Of a stretch of 64,000 nucleotides of DNA, positions 2,586-45,128 are shown piece by piece (position 1 is the first letter of the stretch; each line of letters starts with the position of its first letter). The translations under genes were made by a program, and so were the position numbers. Source of the DNA: Anaerolineaceae bacterium (lineage in GTDB: Bacteria > Chloroflexota > Anaerolineae > Aggregatilineales > Phototrophicaceae); assembly GCA_016124855.1 (NCBI GenBank), contig WGMX01000010.1, forward strand, positions 160,756 to 224,755, written 5' to 3'. Below the pieces are notes generated by a model. It ran no database searches and was not told the DNA's origin. It saw only the letters and a program-made list of their open reading frames with translations.

Positions 2586-5267
2586 ATGGCAGTCCTAGAA
2601 ACAGACATCCTACAAACGAAACTGTCCCCTCCCTTCGTTCGCAGCGATCTTGTTCTGCGTGCCCGCCTTACACAGCGGTTCAGCGCCAGTTTAGAACGCC
2701 CATTTATGCTGATCTGTGCACCTGCTGGGTATGGCAAAACCACCTTATTGGGCGAGTGGCTTTCTGCTGATGGAGCAAGCACTGCGCCTGTCGCTTGGCT
2801 GTCGCTGGATGAAGATGACAATGACCCCATCCGCTTTCTGATCTACTTGGTTTCCGCGCTCACCAAGATCGGCCACTCAGGCATGGACGAGGTACTGTCT
2901 CTGCTGCGTTCGCCACAGCCACCGCCAGCCAAGGTCGTGCTGACCGGACTCATCAGTCGCTTGGAAGCCTATCCCGGTCAGTTTGTGCTGGTGTTGGACG
3001 ACTATCACCTCATTACCGCTGTGCCCATTCATGAAGCGATGACCTTTCTGCTAGACCATCTTCCTACACAGATGCATTTGGTAATCATCAGTCGTGAAGA
3101 CCCACCGTTCCCGCTGGCTCGTTTACGCGGTCGCGGACAAGTCTCCGAAATTCGTGCGGATGAATTGCGCTTCACACTGGATGAAGCCGGACGATTTCTG
3201 TCGCAGATGTTGGGCATTGAGTTAAGTGTCGATCAATTACACGATTTGGACACACGGACGGAGGGCTGGGTCGCAGGGCTCCAGATGGCGGCGCTGGCGA
3301 TGAAAGGGCGCGAAGATGTCGGCAGATTCATCGCAGCATTTACGGGCAGCCACCGCTTTATCCTCGATTATCTAATGGAAGAAGTGCTGAACCGCCAGTC
3401 AGCTGATATTCAGGAATTTCTGCTGCACTCGTCCGTGCTGGATCGTTTGAGCGGTTCGCTATGCGATAGGGTAACAGGGCGTAGCGACAGCCAGTTCATA
3501 CTGGAGCAGATTGAGCATGGCAATCTGTTCTTGATTGCCTTGGATGACGAGCGTCACTGGTATCGCTATCACCACCTGTTTGGCGAGATGTTGCAGCGTC
3601 ACCTACAGCTGGTCAATGGGAACATTGTGCCGGAACTGCACAACCTCGCCAGTGAGTGGTTTGAGCAGAATGGGTGGTACAGCGAGGCGATAGAGCATGC
3701 CCTCACGGGACATAATGAACGCAGGGCGGTGCAGTTGATTGCCCAATATGGCGCACAAGTACGTATGCGCGGTGAACTGGCCACCGTCCTGCGTTGGCTG
3801 AAATCGCTACCCGACGCAGTTCTCCGGTTGTTCCCGGAACTTGAGTTAGATTACGCATTCATGCTGACCATGACCGACTCTGACACAGAAGCGGAAAAAC
3901 ACGTATTGGAAGTTGAGCAAGCGCTTCTTAATCAGAATTTGGTTGAAGATGAAGCCAAGCGGACAACTCTACTGGGACGTGCAGCTGCTATTCGCACCAC
4001 GTTGTCTCTCTTACTGGGTTACGAAGGTGATATAACCATTGCTACAGGTAGAAAGGCGCATAACCTATTACCCGAAAGCGATGTGTTTTGGCGTGCGTGG
4101 GTCTATTTCAATATGGGAGTCGCTTACTACATTTCAAAGGGCGAAGTACGTAACGCTGAACATTGCCTTCAAGAGGCGATTCACTTGTGCGAACACTTGA
4201 ATGACACCTTTACGATAATGGTCTCGCTTTCCCAATTGTCAAGAATGTATATCATTTGTGGACGCCTGCGACAGGCCGATGCAGTTATTGATCAGTTGTT
4301 ACAAACGAAGATGGCACCAAGAGCGTGGGGGCAGGCATGGTTTGACCGCAGTCAAATACGTTATGAGCGAAATGATATTGCGGGCGCCCTTGAAGATGTA
4401 ATAGAGGCTCGTCGCATTTTCGCAGGCTATGAATTAAAACGGTTTTCCATTGATGGATGTGCGAAAATGGCGCGTCTCAAATGGGCGATGGGAGATGAAG
4501 TCGAAGCCAATAAACTAATGAAGCAGGCTGTCGAGATAGCCCGTGCATCGAACTTGACATTGACTCTTGTCGATGAAGATGTATGGCAGGCATGGTTGTG
4601 GCTTAAGACCGGTAATCTTTCATTAGCAGTCAAATGGGCCGAGGCTATTGAACCGACTACGCGCGAACACCTCAATCCTGCCATGGAGTTCAAGCATATA
4701 ATGCTCGCTCGGGTCTGGTTCGCAAAGGGCCGTTATGAAGAAGCCGAAGAGCTTCTGGGGCGTCTGATGCTGTCAGCTGATGGCGCCGGACGCATGGGAC
4801 GGATCATTGAAATTTGTATACTTCAGGCCTTGACGTTCAGTTTGCGCGGCAATCTTGACAGGGCGTTGGAAAAACTTGCACGCGCCCTAACTTTGGGTGA
4901 ACCTGAGGGCTACGTGCGCACATTCGTAGATGAAGGACCTCCAATGATCGCGCTGTTGCAGGATGCACAGAAGCGTGGCATTGCGGTGGAGTACGTCACA
5001 CGACTGCTGGCGGCCTTTGACTGGAAGTTGCCAGTCGAAAGCGTGCTTGATGACCACGGCATCAGGAGTGAAATCGAGCCACTCACCGACCGCGAACTTG
5101 ATGTGCTGCGCTTAATCACCGATGGGGCATCTAACCGCGAGATCGCTGATGCTCTGTTCATCAGTATCGGTACCGTCAAGAAACACTTGAACAATATTTT
5201 CCTCAAACTTGATGTCCATAGCCGCACACAACTGATTGCTAGTGCAAGGAAATACAATCTTCTGTAG
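2586..5267 (+). CDS. MalT-like ATP-dependent LuxR-family transcriptional regulator
   Basis: This 893-residue protein has the full MalT/LAL layout: Walker A (APAGYGKTT, residues about 45-53), Walker B (LVLDDYH, near 135), a long alpha-helical TPR-like sensor region, and a LuxR helix-turn-helix in the last 65 residues ([40 protein letters not shown]). Length fits the family (about 850-900). ATG at 2586 gives an N-terminus ([20 protein letters not shown]) typical of these proteins. The preceding gene is a diverged duplicate; the ATPase and HTH parts are most alike and the sensor region least, suggesting separate inducers. By family knowledge it should activate a target operon when ATP and an inducer bind; neither target nor inducer can be read from the sequence. 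Confidence 0.93.
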
Positions 5268-5427
5268 CCTGCGGCAGAATTCGAACAATCTAAACATTGA
5301 ATATCCAGCTCTGACTCAACGGAAACCACTAAATTTTACTCATACCCCGACCAAATCCATATCGCTAGGTACGTACAAAGTGTTCAAAACCGTCTTTGTA
5401 CTATGTTTATTCTGCTTGGGATATAGA

Positions 5428-5619
5428 AGTTTCAACGGTACTTTCCGCAGCGAATGTTTGGATCGCTGGCTCTTTGCTGATGGTCAGCAGGCTCAAACCG
5501 TTATTGAACAGTGGCGTCTGGAGTACAATCATCATCGTCCGCACAGCAGCTTAGGTTATCTGCCTCCCGCAGTATCCCCATCAATTCATCCATTATCTGC
5601 AAGCCCTCAAAGTGCTTAA
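5428..5619 (+). pseudogene. IS3-type transposase C-terminal remnant
   Basis: About 64 codons ending at 5619 encode the last part of an IS3-family OrfB integrase core: SFNGTFRSECLDRWLF, then IEQWRLEYNHHRPHSSLGYLPPA. The final catalytic Glu region and the YNxxRPHSSLGYLxPA signature are recognisable. The DDE residues further upstream are absent, and the codons before 5428 in the same frame (from the end of the MalT-like gene) show no transposase similarity. No inverted repeat or target duplication was seen. It is a dead tail left by an old insertion between two regulator genes. The rest of 5268-5778 shows nothing recognisable. Confidence 0.8.
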
Positions 5620-5778
5620 AAGGGTCAGCGTTGCCTTCCACTTCTCAGCAATCATTATGAGTTTGAGAAAATGGATCGGTACCAATCACATGTGTTTTAT
5701 AGCGTGAGATGCATGTCACTCAACGCGCAGGTACAATACGGTGACACCATAAGCATCAAACCATGAGGCTAAGGTATT

Positions 5779-8700
5779 ATGCATCTGCCGCAAAGCGACA
5801 TCCAGCTTGTCGGACGATCTCGCGAAATGAATGATTTACACACGCTGCTCAAGCGAACCGCACAGGTGCAGGGACACGTTGTCTTGTTAAGCGGCGAAGC
5901 GGGGATCGGGAAAACGCAGCTGCTCACGTCGTTGACCGGCCTTGCAAAGCAATACAAATTTGAAGTTGTACGCGGCGAATGTAATGAGCTGGATCAAGAT
6001 TTCCCTTATGCGCCAATCATTGATGGACTCCGCACCCATTTTTCGGGAATCACCGCAGAGGAATTGCAGCGTATCATCGGACCATTTCAATCAGAAATTC
6101 TCCGTTTGTTTCCGGAACTGTCACTTCAATTTGACATCCTCACGCATCCCGGTTGGCTCGATCCCGAAGCAGAGAAACGCCGTCTTTTTGAGGTATTGGT
6201 ACAGATCTACCAGCGGATTGCGACATCCGGGCTGCTGCTGATTTTTGAGGACATTCACTGGTCTGATGACACCAGTTTGGAGTTCTTGCGGATCCTGACG
6301 CGGCGCGTCAGCAAGCTGCCCATCATGGTCGCCCTCAGCAGCCGGAATGTGCCACCGGAAAGCGAGGTTGCGAAACTACAATCCTATCTCGACCGGTCAG
6401 AGAATGCCCAGACCACCACGCTGCACTTACTGACTGAAGTCGAGACAGAGTCTCTGCTCAAAACCGTCTTGAAGACGACTGAAGCAATCCACCCTTCCCT
6501 CTTTCAGCGGCTCTACAGCCTGACGCAGGGCAATCCACTCTATGCGCAGCAGATCGTTCACATGCTGCAGCAGAACCGGCAAATTAATCTGGTGAACGGT
6601 GTCTGGATTGTGACGGATGTCAACAGTGAAGTTGAAATCCCGCAATCCATCAGGCAGACCATTCAGCAGCAGTTAGCCATGCTAACTGATGAAGACGTGC
6701 GATTGTTGCAGGTGGCGGGGGTTGCCGGACGGGAGTTCAGCCTCACACTTTTGCAAACGCTGCTGCACTTCGACGATGCCCTGTTGCTCAAGTTGATCAA
6801 GAAATTGACCAAACTACATTTTTTCAACGAAATCTCGCGGGATCGTTTCGCCTTCCGCCATGCGGTCATACGGCAGGTGATATACGACAGCCTGCTCATC
6901 CGCGAACGCCAGTCCATCCATCAAGCGATTCTGCGTTATCTCCAAAACTTGTACGAACCCGTGAGTCTGGTGGATTTATCGCATCACGCTTACAACGCTG
7001 AAGACTGGGAGGCGGCATTTAATTACGGATTTCAGGCGGGGCAACATGCTTTGGCGCTGCATTCCTCACAAGCGGCGGTTGAGCAGTTTACGCACGCGAT
7101 ACAGGCTGCCAGTCGTCTAGGGAAACGTGATATTGCGAAACTGTCTATGTTGAGGGGCGACGCCTTCAGCAACCTGAGCCGGTTTCAAGCCGCACATGCG
7201 GATTATGAGACGGCTTTACAAATCGCAGAAGCAGCGGGTGACCGCATATCGGCGTGGCAAGCCATGATTGCGCTGGCAAAACTCTGGACAGCGCAGGATT
7301 ATCGACGGGTGAAAGACTATTGTGAACGTGCTCTGGTGTTAGCGCGCGAGATGGATGATGTGGCAAGCATTGCCCACAGCCTAAATCGGCTTGGGAACTG
7401 GCACTTGAATGACGGTCAGGTTGATTTAGCTCTACAACACTACGAGGACGCGCTCACGATTTTTGATGGCAGCAGTGATCTGGCGGGCAAGGCTGAAACC
7501 TTCGGCCTGATCGGCATGGCGGCCAATGCCAATTTCTACTTCAGTAAATCGGCTGACTATTATCGTCGTGCTATCGAACTTTACCGTCATCTTGATAATC
7601 GCCAAGCGCTGGCTTGGACACTGGCAAATATGGGACTGATAACGTCTGACGCGGAGATGATCCATGAGTCCATCGACATTGCCCGCGAAATCGGTTTCTA
7701 CAGCGCTGAAGCCTATGGCTGCATCTGTGTAGGCAATATCTATTCGTATCGCGGTGACTACAGTTCGGCGCTTGCCTATGTGGATCGAGCCGTCGATCTG
7801 GCGCAATCGATTAACCACACAGAGTGGCTGGCTGCTGCCCATCTGCGATTGGGACTAATCTATCGTGATCTGTTTGATCTGGATAAGGCGACAGAACATG
7901 CCGTGACAGGTACCGCGCTGGCGAAACAGTCAGGGTCGCATTGGTTCATTGCACGTGCGATCGGCTTGAATGTTAGCATTTTAGTTGCAAACAATCAGTT
8001 CGCCGAAGCCGAAGCGTTGCTCGCGGAGTATCACGCGCCCCCCAAGCCGATCCTCCAGCAGTTCGAGATTACGTTGGCTCGTGCAGAACTTGCTAGAGCA
8101 CGGGCGCAGCCTGAAAAGATCCTCGAAATTGCCGAAGCGATGGCGAATGTTTCCCATGACACCGAAGAGGACTTACCTTTAGTTCCCTACTTCACCTTTT
8201 ATAGGCTGTTGATTGCTGAAGCATATTTGCGTCTTGATGAGCAAGAACAAGCATTCATCACGCTTGAAATCGCCAAACGCGACTGTGAGCACTTCCATCT
8301 GCTGTCACTGCTTTGGCAAATCGATGCGATGTTAGCGAAGATATATTCTCAGGATCATGAAACCACCGCACATGAGTACTATCAATCCGCGCAGGATACG
8401 ATTAATCAAATTGCACAGACCGTGCCGGAAGACCTGCGGACGAATTTTCTAAAACATACCTTGGCCGCAATTCCAGCAAGCAACATGCTTGGTGTGACAA
8501 AAGTCGAAGACCACGATTTAACCCGACGTGAAACGGAAATCGTCCATGAAATTGCGCTTGGGAAAAACAATCAGCAAATCGCAGGTGACTTACACATTAC
8601 CATCAAGACAGTCGAAGCCCACATTACCCGAATTCTCTCGAAGCTTGATATGACCTCGCGTACGCAGATCGCATTATGGGCCGTTGATAAGGATCTCTGA
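5779..8700 (+). CDS. AAA ATPase / TPR / LuxR-HTH regulator (LAL type)
   Basis: This 973-residue protein starts with a VGRSREMNDLHTLL segment (an orc1/AAA_16-type entry motif), Walker A GEAGIGKT at residues about 39-46, and a Walker B-like LLIFEDIHW near 155-163. A long TPR-rich region follows (repeated A-x-x-x-Y-x-x-A-L patterns between about 450 and 850). It ends in a LuxR-type helix-turn-helix (LTRRETEIVHEIALGKNNQQ, TVEAHITRILSKL). It is a large ATP-dependent regulator but of a different subfamily from the two MalT-like genes upstream. ATG at 5779 begins the conserved N-terminus. The next gene starts 130 bp downstream on the same strand. Ligand and targets are unknown. Confidence 0.92.
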   Translation: MHLPQSDIQLVGRSREMNDLHTLLKRTAQVQGHVVLLSGEAGIGKTQLLTSLTGLAKQYKFEVVRGECNELDQDFPYAPIIDGLRTHFSGITAEELQRIIGPFQSEILRLFPELSLQFDILTHPGWLDPEAEKRRLFEVLVQIYQRIATSGLLLIFEDIHWSDDTSLEFLRILTRRVSKLPIMVALSSRNVPPESEVAKLQSYLDRSENAQTTTLHLLTEVETESLLKTVLKTTEAIHPSLFQRLYSLTQGNPLYAQQIVHMLQQNRQINLVNGVWIVTDVNSEVEIPQSIRQTIQQQLAMLTDEDVRLLQVAGVAGREFSLTLLQTLLHFDDALLLKLIKKLTKLHFFNEISRDRFAFRHAVIRQVIYDSLLIRERQSIHQAILRYLQNLYEPVSLVDLSHHAYNAEDWEAAFNYGFQAGQHALALHSSQAAVEQFTHAIQAASRLGKRDIAKLSMLRGDAFSNLSRFQAAHADYETALQIAEAAGDRISAWQAMIALAKLWTAQDYRRVKDYCERALVLAREMDDVASIAHSLNRLGNWHLNDGQVDLALQHYEDALTIFDGSSDLAGKAETFGLIGMAANANFYFSKSADYYRRAIELYRHLDNRQALAWTLANMGLITSDAEMIHESIDIAREIGFYSAEAYGCICVGNIYSYRGDYSSALAYVDRAVDLAQSINHTEWLAAAHLRLGLIYRDLFDLDKATEHAVTGTALAKQSGSHWFIARAIGLNVSILVANNQFAEAEALLAEYHAPPKPILQQFEITLARAELARARAQPEKILEIAEAMANVSHDTEEDLPLVPYFTFYRLLIAEAYLRLDEQEQAFITLEIAKRDCEHFHLLSLLWQIDAMLAKIYSQDHETTAHEYYQSAQDTINQIAQTVPEDLRTNFLKHTLAAIPASNMLGVTKVEDHDLTRRETEIVHEIALGKNNQQIAGDLHITIKTVEAHITRILSKLDMTSRTQIALWAVDKDL

Positions 8701-40626: not shown

Positions 40627-40810
40627 AGATATAGCATAGCACAAAAGTTCGTCGAATGGGTTACCAAAATGTAACTCTTTCGCGACCAATTTACCAACGG
40701 TTTTGAGGGAGAAATTGGGTGGTCGAGGTTGACGGAGGGTTGGGAATTAGTTTGGTGTAAAATTTAAGTGTGTAACAACTGCGAAAAGTTATCCATTGTG
40801 GCGGTCAATT

Positions 40811-41737
40811 ATGGTCAAAGCAATTTCACTGTACGGAACAGGTGAGTTACGGCAAGCGATTAAACGTACTGACCTAACGCTACTTGAGAGTTTCATTCGG
40901 TTTCTTGAAAATGATCCAATCGAGTTTGGTTCAGGTTATAGCAAAGAGATCGTTTGGCGATACATCAGACGTTACCCGCTGAATGACGAGCAAATTCACC
41001 GTCTTGAGGAAGCGGCTTTCAAATGTTTAGCGCGACCAATGACTCCTGAATTTAAGTTCATGTGCTTAACTATGTCGCATCTTGCTACGGATGCTTTCTG
41101 GAAACGGGTTGAAGGGATATTAGAAGCCGACAATCCTATTGTGCAAATCAACGCTTATTGTTTATTTGCTTACTCGAAGGGGATTTATGCCGGAGAAAAA
41201 CAACGTCTAGAAATGAAAAAGGTTAAATTTCAATTATTTGTAGCCTACTATACCTACCATCACGCTTATTCGGTTGAGGATTTAGTCGCCCTGATACAGG
41301 CTGCTGAAAATTGGCCTGATGGTGAAGTTCGTTATCGACAACCTGTTGAAGTGTATATGCCGATCTTTAATTTTGACAATGATTTGATTGCAACATTCGA
41401 CTTATCGATGAGCAAAAAAGATGTCGTATTCAGAAATTTGGGTGAAATATTATCAACAGGCGTTTTACATCCTGAGACAGTAGATGCATGGGTATATGCG
41501 ATTTTCCTGTTAGGACAATTGGATTATCCTGAAGCTGTTGGCTTATTGATTGATTTCATGAACCAGAAACTCGATTTTATGCCCAATAGCTATTACAAAA
41601 AAATGCCGGCACATATGCTTCAAAGGGTGCTGAATTATTATGGAACACCAGAGGCACTTGAGGCAGTCAAACAACTGGAAAGCATAACTCAGAATCATTG
41701 CTATGCTAGGATAGAAGTAGATCACACAAACAGATGA
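40811..41737 (+). CDS. Uncharacterised helical protein upstream of the tRNA-like unit
   Basis: The 308-residue protein is not recognised. It is soluble, rich in helices with amphipathic spacing, and has a W/Y-rich middle (FWKRVEGILEADNPIVQINA, LFVAYYTYHHAYSVEDLVAL), which gives a HEAT- or ARM-like feel without a clear repeat consensus. No signal peptide, membrane segment or catalytic motif was seen. ATG 40811 is chosen; TTG 40796 would add five residues. Its stop is nine bases before the next start, so the two genes are probably co-transcribed, and they lie just upstream of the permuted tRNA-like RNAs. It also uses more A/T-ending codons than its neighbours, a hint of transfer. Confidence 0.75.
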   Translation: MVKAISLYGTGELRQAIKRTDLTLLESFIRFLENDPIEFGSGYSKEIVWRYIRRYPLNDEQIHRLEEAAFKCLARPMTPEFKFMCLTMSHLATDAFWKRVEGILEADNPIVQINAYCLFAYSKGIYAGEKQRLEMKKVKFQLFVAYYTYHHAYSVEDLVALIQAAENWPDGEVRYRQPVEVYMPIFNFDNDLIATFDLSMSKKDVVFRNLGEILSTGVLHPETVDAWVYAIFLLGQLDYPEAVGLLIDFMNQKLDFMPNSYYKKMPAHMLQRVLNYYGTPEALEAVKQLESITQNHCYARIEVDHTNR

Positions 41738-41746
41738 GGCAACATT

Positions 41747-42478
41747 ATGGCAAAACTGAACCAGATTATTGCGGTTGAAAAAGGCATAAAGAGCGAATCG
41801 CTTCGGGATTTGACGGATGCGCATCAACTCCTCCAGAAACCGGCTTTACTATCCGGTATATCACGCACCTATCGCCCGAAAGATGAAGAAGGCGAACAAC
41901 TGCCACCGGAATCGACCAAAGTACAGGTCAAGGCGCAGGAAGTCATTCGGACGACAGTGGGCGTATTGACCAAGTTGTTCGATGTGACCGCCACTAAAGA
42001 TTGGGCGAACGGTCTCGCTAAAGCCGATGTCACCGTCGATGGCAATGTATTGCTATCACAAGTTCCGGTGAGTTATTTACTGTTCCTCGAAAAGCAGCTT
42101 GCCGATCTGCACACCTTCGTCAAGAAGCTGCCGACATTGGATGCTTCAGAAACATGGACATTCGATACCTCAACCGATAGTTGGGCAACCGAGCCGATGC
42201 AAACCAGTAAGACCAAGAAAATCCCGCGCAACCATGTGAAGGCCGAAGCCACCGAGCATCATCCCGCACAGGTCGAGGTTTATTATGAGGATGTGGTGGT
42301 CGGTTATTGGAGAACAGTCAAGTTCTCCGGTGCGCTGCCTGCTACCCGCGTGAATGAACTCTTGGAACGCGTCGAAAAGTTGCAGCAAGCCGTGAAGTTC
42401 GCCCGCGAAGAAGCCAACAGCATCGAAGTCGCTGACCAGAAAATTGGCGACAAGGTGTTCGGGTATTTGTTTGCGTGA
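41747..42478 (+). CDS. Conserved protein of unknown function, adjacent to tRNA-like RNAs
   Basis: The 243-residue protein looks like a strongly constrained family member (from memory a DUF family shared with actinobacteria; not checked): N-terminus LNQIIAVEKGIKSESLRDLT, the block LLSGISRTYRPKDEEGEQLP, LFDVTATKDWANGLAKADV, a leucine-rich LLFLEKQLADLHTFVKKLP, RNHVKAEATEHHPAQVEVYY, and a C-terminal coiled-coil-like helix NELLERVEKLQQAVKFAREE. It has no signal, membrane segment or familiar catalytic motif. The stop is only three bases before the promoter of the permuted tRNA-like unit, and an unknown gene lies nine bases upstream. A role in binding or handling those RNAs is a guess from position. 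Confidence 0.85.
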   Translation: MAKLNQIIAVEKGIKSESLRDLTDAHQLLQKPALLSGISRTYRPKDEEGEQLPPESTKVQVKAQEVIRTTVGVLTKLFDVTATKDWANGLAKADVTVDGNVLLSQVPVSYLLFLEKQLADLHTFVKKLPTLDASETWTFDTSTDSWATEPMQTSKTKKIPRNHVKAEATEHHPAQVEVYYEDVVVGYWRTVKFSGALPATRVNELLERVEKLQQAVKFAREEANSIEVADQKIGDKVFGYLFA

Positions 42479-42481
42479 TGA

Positions 42482-42509
42482 TTGACGGTACTTAAACCTC
42501 GATTATAAT
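42482..42509 (+). promoter_or_regulatory. Sigma70-type promoter of the tRNA-like RNA unit
   Basis: TTGACG (42482-42487) and a perfect TATAAT (42504-42509) are 16 bases apart. The predicted transcript start is about 42515-42518, upstream of the first tRNA-like half and after the stop of the preceding gene. No open frame of credible coding character follows before the terminator at 42857. Confidence 0.8.
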
Positions 42510-42536
42510 CGGAGATGGAGTGCAAGCTGAAACTCA

Positions 42537-42662
42537 AGCTCTTTATGACGGTTGAAGCGTGAACAGTGTGGGTTCGAATCCTACCTCCGCCACCATTTAA
42601 GACACATGGCGGAGTAGCCCAATTGGCAGAGGCAAGCGCCAATACCACCCGAAATTAAAGCT
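42537..42662 (+). ncRNA. Permuted tRNA-like RNA, unit A (3' half before 5' half)
   Basis: The 3' half comes first: anticodon-stem strand GCGTG (42557-42561), six-base variable region, T stem GTGGG/CCTAC around a canonical TTCGAAT loop (42568-42584), acceptor strand CTCCGCC (42585-42591) and encoded ACCA (42592-42595). After a 12-base connector comes the 5' half: acceptor GGCGGAG (42608-42614), TA, D arm GCCC-AATTGGCAGA-GGC with the usual GG (42617-42633), A, and AGCGC (42635-42639). The acceptor strands pair perfectly over 7 bp; AGCGC/GCGTG gives four pairs with one G-U. Beyond, a 4x4 internal loop and ACC/GGT, TAAA/TTTA and GCT/AGC pairs extend the anticodon arm. A linear tRNA reading is impossible in this order. 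The anticodon cannot be fixed. Confidence 0.75.
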
Positions 42663-42694
42663 ATGGCTCCAGCTTCAGCATTCGCCGTCGAACG

Positions 42695-42832
42695 CCAAAT
42701 CAAATGTTTGGGGTCGTGATATTGTCGGATATGGGCGCACCTCCCATCTGCCCCTCTCACTTACATGGGGCGGTAGTTTAATAGAAAAACACGACAGTCT
42801 AAGGACTGAACCCCTGACTTAAACGCCGTTGG
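42695..42832 (+). ncRNA. Permuted tRNA-like RNA, unit B (3' half before 5' half)
   Basis: The 3' half: TGTCG (42723-42727), GAT, T-arm stem ATGGG/CCCAT with a non-canonical seven-base loop CGCACCT (42731-42747), acceptor strand CTGCCCC (42748-42754), with no CCA. After a 12-base connector, the 5' half: GGGGCGG (42767-42773), TA, D stem GTTT/AAAC with a seven-base loop lacking GG (42776-42790), A, and CGACA (42792-42796). Acceptor pairing is 7/7 with one G-U, D stem 4/4, anticodon stem CGACA/TGTCG 5/5 and T stem 5/5. Further pairs ACCCC/GGGGT (42810-42814 with 42710-42714), AAAC/GTTT and TTGG/CCAA lengthen the anticodon arm. CAGTC/GACTG could form a competing small hairpin. Elbow loops are degenerate, so this unit may not be a working tRNA. 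Confidence 0.65.
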
Positions 42833-42856
42833 TGTGTGCAAATGGGCGGCAACCTT

Positions 42857-42889
42857 AAACCCGGAAGATGGATACTCTTCCGGGTTTTT
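42857..42889 (+). terminator. Strong Rho-independent terminator of the tRNA-like unit
   Basis: AAACCCGGAAGA (42857-42868) pairs perfectly with TCTTCCGGGTTT (42876-42887) around a TGGATAC loop, followed by a T run. It closes the transcript begun at about 42516, giving a primary RNA of about 370 bases. Confidence 0.92.
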
Positions 42890-42936
42890 CCTTTTAGAAA
42901 GGCGTTAACAAATAGTCATATTGTGAGAAATAAATC

Positions 42937-42997
42937 GGACGCGATGTATCGCGTCCCTACAAAAAAGCTATTCGTAGGGACGGCATACATGCCGTCC
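42937..42997. repeat. REP-like GTAGGGAC palindromic repeat pair
   Basis: Two facing copies: GGACGCGATGTATCGCGTCC then CTAC, and GTAGGGACGGCATACATGCC then GTCC. Each is itself a palindrome and they are inverted with respect to each other around a short A-rich spacer. A related element is at 46284-46314. These are short mobile-type intergenic palindromes, seen in many genomes. Confidence 0.7.
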
Positions 42998-43024
42998 GAG
43001 AACTTTGGAATATTCGAGGGCTTC

Positions 43025-44402: not shown

Positions 44403-44972
44403 TTACCCTGATTTAGATGTTTGATGAACCGACTCTAACCATAATTCACGCAGTTTTTGAATTCCCGTGCGCAAGCGTGTCTTCACCGTGCCTAACGGGA
44501 TGTGCGTCACTTCGGCAATGTCACCATGACTCAGTCCGCGAAAAAAAGCCAGACCGATCAGCGTGGCCTGTTCTTCGGGAAGCTGCTGCACCAACATGCG
44601 TAAGGTCGTCCCATCCCGCCATAACGATTCACTGGCGTAAGCCGGAATTTCCTCCGCCATCTCTTCAATCGAGTCGGGATGAACATCCGGCTGGCGGCGT
44701 TCTTGTCGCAGACGGTCAATAGCCGTGAACTGGGTAATGGTCAGCAGCCAGTTTTTGAGTTTCCCTTTGGCAGGGTCCCACTGGCTTTTACTCTGCCAGA
44801 CTTTGACAAACGCATCCTGCGTCACCTCTTCAGCGAGGGTGGAATTTTGCAGCATATGATAGGCCAGACTGTAAACAGCCTTCCCATATTCTTGATACAA
44901 CGCCCGAAAAGCCTGCTGGTCGCGGGCGGCAATTCGTTTCATGATGTCCAGATCGTCAAATTGAAACTGCAT
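44403..44972 (-). CDS. ECF sigma factor (sigma-70 family, SigK-like)
   Basis: The 189-residue protein has sigma region 2 (DQQAFRALYQEYGKAVYSLA, then AEEVTQDAFVKVWQSKSQWD) and region 4 (LPEEQATLIGLAFFRGLSHG, DIAEVTHIPLGTVKTRLRTG), with no region 1.1 or 3, as in ECF factors. ATG 44972 is preferred over GTG 44987, as GGAG precedes it. It precedes its anti-sigma factor by 43 bp on the same strand and faces, across a short promoter region, a gene for a triple-repeat secreted protein. By family knowledge it directs RNA polymerase to a small regulon that usually includes such neighbours. Confidence 0.93.
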   Translation of the reverse strand: MQFQFDDLDIMKRIAARDQQAFRALYQEYGKAVYSLAYHMLQNSTLAEEVTQDAFVKVWQSKSQWDPAKGKLKNWLLTITQFTAIDRLRQERRQPDVHPDSIEEMAEEIPAYASESLWRDGTTLRMLVQQLPEEQATLIGLAFFRGLSHGDIAEVTHIPLGTVKTRLRTGIQKLRELWLESVHQTSKSG

Positions 44973-45128
44973 GTGTCTACGCTCCACCCCCTCAGTCTAG
45001 CAGTTTCAGCCTCTACCTGTAAAGTGATTTGCAATCCGCCGCAATCCAAAATGCAAAATATGAACGATTAACACAATAGGTGGGTGACAAACAACTCACA
45101 ATCGCATATCCGTTAGGGAGGGTAAAAA

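Follow-up and report, generated by a model that had tools for sequence, protein, structure and literature searches.

What is a transfer RNA (tRNA)-like unit with its two halves in reversed order doing next to a DUF7873 protein gene in a bacterium? This question is raised by a 64,000-nucleotide stretch of DNA (hereafter the window) on contig WGMX01000010.1 (C10) of an Anaerolineaceae bacterium (assembly GCA_016124855.1, 7.1 Mb, contamination estimate 9%), in which an initial annotation had read positions 42537-42662 as a permuted bacterial tRNA gene. Our analysis places this unit, which we call head A, as one of two tRNA-like heads within a predicted RNA of about 370 nucleotides. With a probability of roughly 0.55, and by analogy with the RNA YrlA, this RNA would scaffold a ribonucleoprotein (RNP) with the DUF7873 protein, its heads docking enzymes that recognise the elbow of tRNA.

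Permuted order of head A and its conservation

The features on which the analysis rests are the following, in the coordinates of the window.

41747..42478, plus strand: gene of the DUF7873 protein (243 amino acids), likely partner of the RNA (Pfam PF25283, 8.7e-118; co-occurrence with the RNA)
42482..42509, plus strand: sigma-70-like promoter site TTGACG-16-TATAAT, 11/12 consensus, ending 7 nucleotides before stem P1
42516..42888, plus strand: predicted noncoding RNA of about 370 nucleotides (promoter-like and terminator-like sites, alignment A2, folds)
42517..42522, plus strand: P1 5' strand, pairing with 42665-42670 (5/6 pairs in the window)
42557..42639, plus strand: domain A, an anticodon-arm-like stem (42557-42560/42636-42639) carrying head A
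42568..42633, plus strand: head A, with T arm, acceptor 3' strand, linker (42592-42607), acceptor 5' strand and D arm (direct reading, permuted-tRNA scan, alignment)
42665..42670, plus strand: P1 3' strand (column-count test)
42684..42689, plus strand: P3 5' strand, pairing with 42845-42850 and enclosing domain B
42693..42834, plus strand: domain B, with P4 (42693-42698/42829-42834), P5 (42706-42714/42810-42818), P6 (42721-42727/42792-42798) and head B
42731..42790, plus strand: head B, with T arm (42731-42747), acceptor (42748-42754/42767-42773), linker (42755-42766) and D arm (42776-42790)
42845..42850, plus strand: P3 3' strand (column-count test)
42857..42887, plus strand: terminator-like 3' hairpin with the recurrent loop GGMYA

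In both heads the 3' part (T arm and acceptor 3' strand) precedes the 5' part (acceptor 5' strand and D arm). Read directly, the T stem of head A, GTGGG/CCTAC, pairs at 5/5 positions with one G-U around the loop TTCGAAT, and its acceptor, CTCCGCC/GGCGGAG, pairs at 7/7. The acceptor 3' strand is followed by ACCA and the 12-base connector TTTAAGACACAT, while the acceptor 5' strand leads through TA into a D stem with 3/4 pairs and GG in its loop; the anticodon-like stem below, GCGTG/AGCGC (42557-42561/42635-42639), forms 4/5 pairs including one G-U. A loose permuted-tRNA scan returned five matches in the 64-kb window, only head A combining 5/5 and 7/7 stems. Since 2.85 matches are expected per 64 kb by chance, the permuted pattern alone proves little, and it is conservation among homologues that decides. 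Loci downstream of DUF7873 homologues in several phyla, and in phages too, show the same order of parts, and two-sided changes occur at 7/7 acceptor pairs and 4/5 T-stem pairs in the alignment of 43 sequences (A2). The initial annotation was therefore right about the order of the halves, and the compensatory changes likewise bear out its tRNA-like head on a stem with joined acceptor ends.

A normal linear tRNA over the same bases, the outcome that the initial annotation had set against its own reading, was in fact called by ARAGORN, as a tRNA-Ile(tat) at 42508-42595 sharing the T arm of head A. The call is absent from the sister locus (L020), and only one of 36 homologous loci scanned gave any call here (L030, tRNA-???), so we take it as spurious.

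A conserved two-domain fold

The fold of A2 by RNAalifold (-76.5 kcal/mol) contains 54 pairs, 50 of which show at least one two-sided change. When P1, P3 and two tertiary pairs are included, giving a set of 67 pairs, 91.7% of alignment cells are paired, versus 70.4% when shuffled and 40-48% when slid, with 615 two-sided cells against 180 when shuffled. P1, which closes domain A, is paired in 82.9% of cells, and P3, which closes domain B, in 81.7%; for each of the two stems, 0/500 shuffles reached the observed value for paired cells, for two-sided cells or for the covariation score. On the remaining two measures, 8/500 and 130/500 shuffles were as high for P1, and 28/500 and 1/500 for P3.

The conservation extends to contacts of tRNA tertiary structure. 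The elbow of a real tRNA is held by the 15-48 and 18-55 contacts, and we numbered the heads by position within their arms. The 48-15 pair of head B (42730-42781 in the window) covaries, being U-A in 29/43 sequences, C-G in 8/43 and other in 6/43. The 55-18 contact also covaries; it is U-G in all 43 copies of head A, and in head B it is U-G in 32/43, G-A in 8/43 and other in 3/43. The RNA thus has a conserved two-domain fold, with tRNA-type secondary and tertiary pairs in its heads. Neither A2 nor its RNAalifold fold contains a conserved anticodon loop; the stem below the head continues into the RNA, and joining the halves restores no conserved anticodon arm.

Two further elements were examined by exchanging strands between loci. 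For the A-side stem below the head, the own-versus-swapped helix test gave 2/2000 permutations over 38 loci, compared with 1151/2000 for a control segment; in this test the best-scoring helix of the window itself differed from the domain A stem. A candidate pseudoknot between 5' CTGA repeats and the segment after P1, which would cross P1, gave 0/2000 in the swap test, with weak column counts (3, 8 and 15/500 shuffles on three measures, 140 and 161/500 on the others).

The initial annotation described head A; head B, the DUF7873 gene, the promoter-like site and the terminator-like hairpin are additional to its finding. Domain B of the window scores 121 bits with R1, a covariance model of domain B built from 35 sequences of which the window is one. 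Head B is degenerate in the window (T loop CGCACCT, D loop without GG) and canonical in many relatives. We infer the positions at which transcription of the RNA starts and ends. The promoter-like site begins three bases after the DUF7873 stop codon, and shuffles of the region yield 0.6 promoter-like sites on average at 9/12 consensus or better. A site of at least 8/12 precedes P1 in only 10/43 rows, so the RNA may be co-transcribed with the DUF7873 gene in many lineages. At the other end, the 3' hairpin is present in 39/43 rows and carries the loop GGMYA in 26/43 (such as TGGATAC and CGGCTAC); because this loop recurs while the stem changes, the hairpin may be a bound element.

Association of the RNA with DUF7873

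Searches with the protein returned at least 573 stretches encoding DUF7873 in species genomes (80 of them taken for study), 29 viral contigs, 73 phage records and 4 plasmids. Both heads, 60-190 bases apart, were found by a scripted search in 77 of 121 loci, a set that includes truncated and duplicate ones; head B of the window was placed by hand. Among the 80 genome loci, 73 gave R1 scores of at least 95 bits, model members accounting for 22 of these; among 36 viral and phage loci, 28 reached at least 50 bits (11 members, four pairs of near-duplicates). Other R1 matches in the window genome, its YrlA-like RNAs included, reached at most 41.5 bits.

The partnership was examined in 400 Chloroflexota genomes, searched with R1 under strict filters and an E-value limit of 1e-7. 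DUF7873 occurs in 24 of them and R1 matches of at least 89 bits in 21, all 21 among the 24 (Fisher p 4e-32, uncorrected for kinship). The RNA is linked to the gene in 13 of these genomes and unlinked, on another contig or far away, in eight, six of which belong to one genus; we presume this genus to be Herpetosiphon, given the matching behaviour of L033, L037, L047 and L049. Both heads are present in each of the three unlinked copies examined. This analysis reveals a partnership of the RNA and DUF7873 at the level of the genome in Chloroflexota, also where the two lie apart. Three genomes have DUF7873 and no strong R1 match: G337, with a 47-bit match on another contig; G259, whose heads next to the gene score about 32 bits; and G445. 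Weaker matches of 44-56 bits were found in eight places; such matches are the strongest in G468, G495 and G507, three genomes without DUF7873.

The RNA and DUF7873 occur together in several phyla and likewise in phages. Since the RNA recurs beside the DUF7873 gene or in the same genome, RNA and protein likely form a particle. In six phage records (L129, L130 and L132-L135), roughly 400-1160 bases following the DUF7873 gene are left unannotated, and in this gap R1 scores 98, 98, 103, 52 and 35 bits in L129, L130, L132, L133 and L134, respectively; the gap of L135 holds no clear match, and 36.5 bits are reached about 2 kb on. The seven phage records inspected carry no RNA annotation at the corresponding position. 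When viral contigs were scanned for a pattern of the RNA's 3' motif, two records were returned, both of them already-known carriers. Some phage copies are situated among tRNA genes. On one viral contig (L109, 5104-5561), up to three extra head-like matches lie beyond the DUF7873-linked RNA.

As for the protein, its AlphaFold2 model (predicted local distance difference test 90.6, predicted template modelling score 0.75) combines long helices with long strands, and searches of the PDB with Foldseek and VIA-align gave no convincing relative. In the open-access literature (subscription literature and preprints being outside the scope), no publication matched DUF7873 or PF25283, and among the matches listed no title or abstract start described the RNA; the term 'tRNA-like' is absent from PMC11109978 and PMC2864571. 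The twin-headed RNA would offer a starting point for working out what DUF7873 does.

Proposed function and alternative explanations

The heads keep the features seen by elbow-reading enzymes and lack an anticodon; this lack, like the joined acceptor ends, suits a mimic made for docking better than an adaptor made for decoding. In the scaffold that we propose on the model of YrlA, the DUF7873 protein would bind the RNA directly and hold its body, with the two heads serving as docks for tRNA-handling enzymes, in parallel with YrlA linking Ro60 to PNPase. A tRNA-mimicking DUF7873 particle probably has a tRNA-related job. More tentatively, DUF7873 and its RNA may represent an undescribed, horizontally spread RNP of bacteria and phages, a twin-headed mimic on one protein-bound RNA that perhaps bridges two tRNA enzymes or fills two tRNA sites. 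The RNA described here would add a large and widespread class of tRNA-mimicking RNAs; it suggests that permuted tRNA-like modules are a reused building block and raises the testable question of which partner could engage two tRNA heads simultaneously.

The main rival, which we consider unlikely, is that the RNA is a tRNA decoy whose uncleavable elbows soak up nucleases directed at tRNA or tRNA enzymes of the host, to the benefit of phages with tRNA arrays and of attacked bacteria. Some phage tRNA arrays do contain or adjoin DUF7873 and the RNA, 13 of the 30 viral loci searched with ARAGORN have tRNA calls within about 3 kb (a count without background control), and a competitive-inhibitor role has been suggested for the head of YrlA (PMC7790460). 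Yet in four cellular genomes the genes flanking DUF7873 or the RNA are ordinary, with none in common, no nuclease partner came to light, and the head offers anticodon nucleases no anticodon.

Less likely again is that the linkers are cut as in two-piece transfer-messenger RNA (tmRNA), giving mature CCA 3' ends for aminoacylation. NCCA follows the acceptor 3' strand in 38/77 A linkers and 16/76 B linkers, the discriminator of head A is A in 40/43 sequences, and the permuted tmRNA model matches the window weakly, at 21.7 bits against a gathering score of 47. By the same counts, however, CCA is absent from half of the A linkers and most of the B linkers, and the window genome has a tmRNA of its own (154 bits). 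There is no constant identity element either, the alanine identity pair G3-U70 occurring in 1/43 copies of head A and 4/43 of head B, which makes general aminoacylation unlikely. Given the NCCA counts, some lineages may process the linkers.

That the RNA acts in cis, as a 3' untranslated region element or an RNA antitoxin for the DUF7873 gene, appears improbable. It would agree with the position of the RNA just downstream of the gene in 73/80 genome loci and with the lack of a strong promoter-like site before P1 in 33/43 relatives, but 8/21 Chloroflexota copies are unlinked and nevertheless co-occur with the gene, and the window does carry a promoter-like site.

We give still less weight to a YrlA-type Y RNA serving Ro60, despite the same permuted head, cross-matches to YrlA of 22-31 bits and a Ro60 gene in the window genome. 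Ro60, detected by its TROVE domain, occurs in 17 of the 400 Chloroflexota genomes and is enriched where DUF7873 is present (7/24 genomes with it versus 10/376 without). However, no TROVE was found in the other 17 of the 24 DUF7873 genomes (some assemblies being incomplete), so Ro60 is not a general partner, and six of the seven genomes with both are of one genus. The single TROVE match of the window genome lies on another contig, where this Ro60 has its own YrlA-like array, and the size and end pairing of our RNA differ from those of YrlA. Around this Ro60 gene (L017; G000:C29, minus strand, 4844-7670) stand six permuted tRNA-like cores, an apparent array of YrlA RNAs. In two genomes of the genus with unlinked RNA (G503:C1:1095353-1100210 and G318:C8:80088-84990) the RNA is about 4.5 kb from a TROVE-like gene, and in G346, G279, G287 and G339 it is not.

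Finally, the permuted tRNA gene of the initial annotation, its transcript circularised and trimmed to a working tRNA, is hardly tenable: the order of the halves and the complete acceptor, T and D arms suit it, but there is no conserved anticodon loop, the acceptor sequence varies, P1 and P3 are conserved around the heads in a larger RNA with a second head, and head A is dispensable, being missing or replaced in L099, L108, L110, L119 and L124, whose sequences were read.

Surroundings of the locus

At the window locus, the two closest named relatives are Anaerolineae. Between the window and its sister locus L020 (compared span 40796-42852), the DUF7873 protein is 97% identical and the RNA 91.5%; the Pfam-less protein encoded upstream is only 43% identical. 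A conserved third gene was ruled out, the 20 neighbour proteins from four genomes compared by Pfam sharing no partner common to the neighbours of the DUF7873 gene or the RNA. Five neighbours from the window, compared with 116 loci, matched L020 and, in 13 loci, sigma factors of 25-29% identity. These relatives of the window sigma factor (44406-44987) lie downstream of DUF7873 on the opposite strand, twelve of the loci falling within L030-L089 and the other being L025; their recurrence is perhaps chance plus shared descent. Beyond the RNA, positions 42925-43017 hold dense inverted repeats, GGACGCGAT..ATCGCGTCC and CGTAGGGACGGCATACATGCCGTCC, which resemble a repeat element and give weak false matches to microRNA families.

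Comparison with known RNAs

Membership of an existing Rfam family was ruled out: neither the window nor 16 homologous loci gave a match at the gathering score (Rfam 15), and those of L086 are sub-threshold. Background on permuted RNAs is given in PMC10085705. Circularly permuted tRNA genes of algae and archaea (PMC3978253 and general background) likewise have the 3' half ahead of the 5' half; they differ from our RNA, in which there is no conserved anticodon, the heads lie inside a larger conserved RNA and head A is dispensable. Permuted two-piece tmRNA (RF04321) resembles it in placing the acceptor 3' part, often with an encoded CCA, ahead of the acceptor 5' part. Here, by contrast, there are two heads, each with a full D arm and no conserved G3-U70, and the tmRNA of the window genome is a separate molecule.

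The nearest known system is YrlA, described in PMC8394870 as an RNA of 90-150 nucleotides with a large stem joining its 5' and 3' ends; PNPase binds its tRNA-like head, which DusA and TruB modify, and Rsr binds its stem. According to the RF02553 alignment and that same source, the head has the module order T arm, acceptor, D arm, so a permuted tRNA-like domain already has a precedent in bacteria. Both RNAs carry a loop-closed acceptor and set the head on a stem, and YrlA acts in an RNP, as our RNA likely does. In contrast to YrlA, the RNA described here has two heads instead of one, about 370 predicted nucleotides, a 5' end in P1 and a 3' region in P3 in place of ends that pair together, and likely DUF7873 rather than Ro60/Rsr as partner. 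Matches to RF02553 score 22-31 bits (22.3 for the window) against a gathering score of 69, a score that the best Ro60-linked YrlA-like RNA of the window genome also misses, with just 44.8 bits. This comparison makes it likely that the twin-headed RNA is a new class, and with DUF7873 a likely RNP, of the tRNA-mimic kind to which YrlA belongs.
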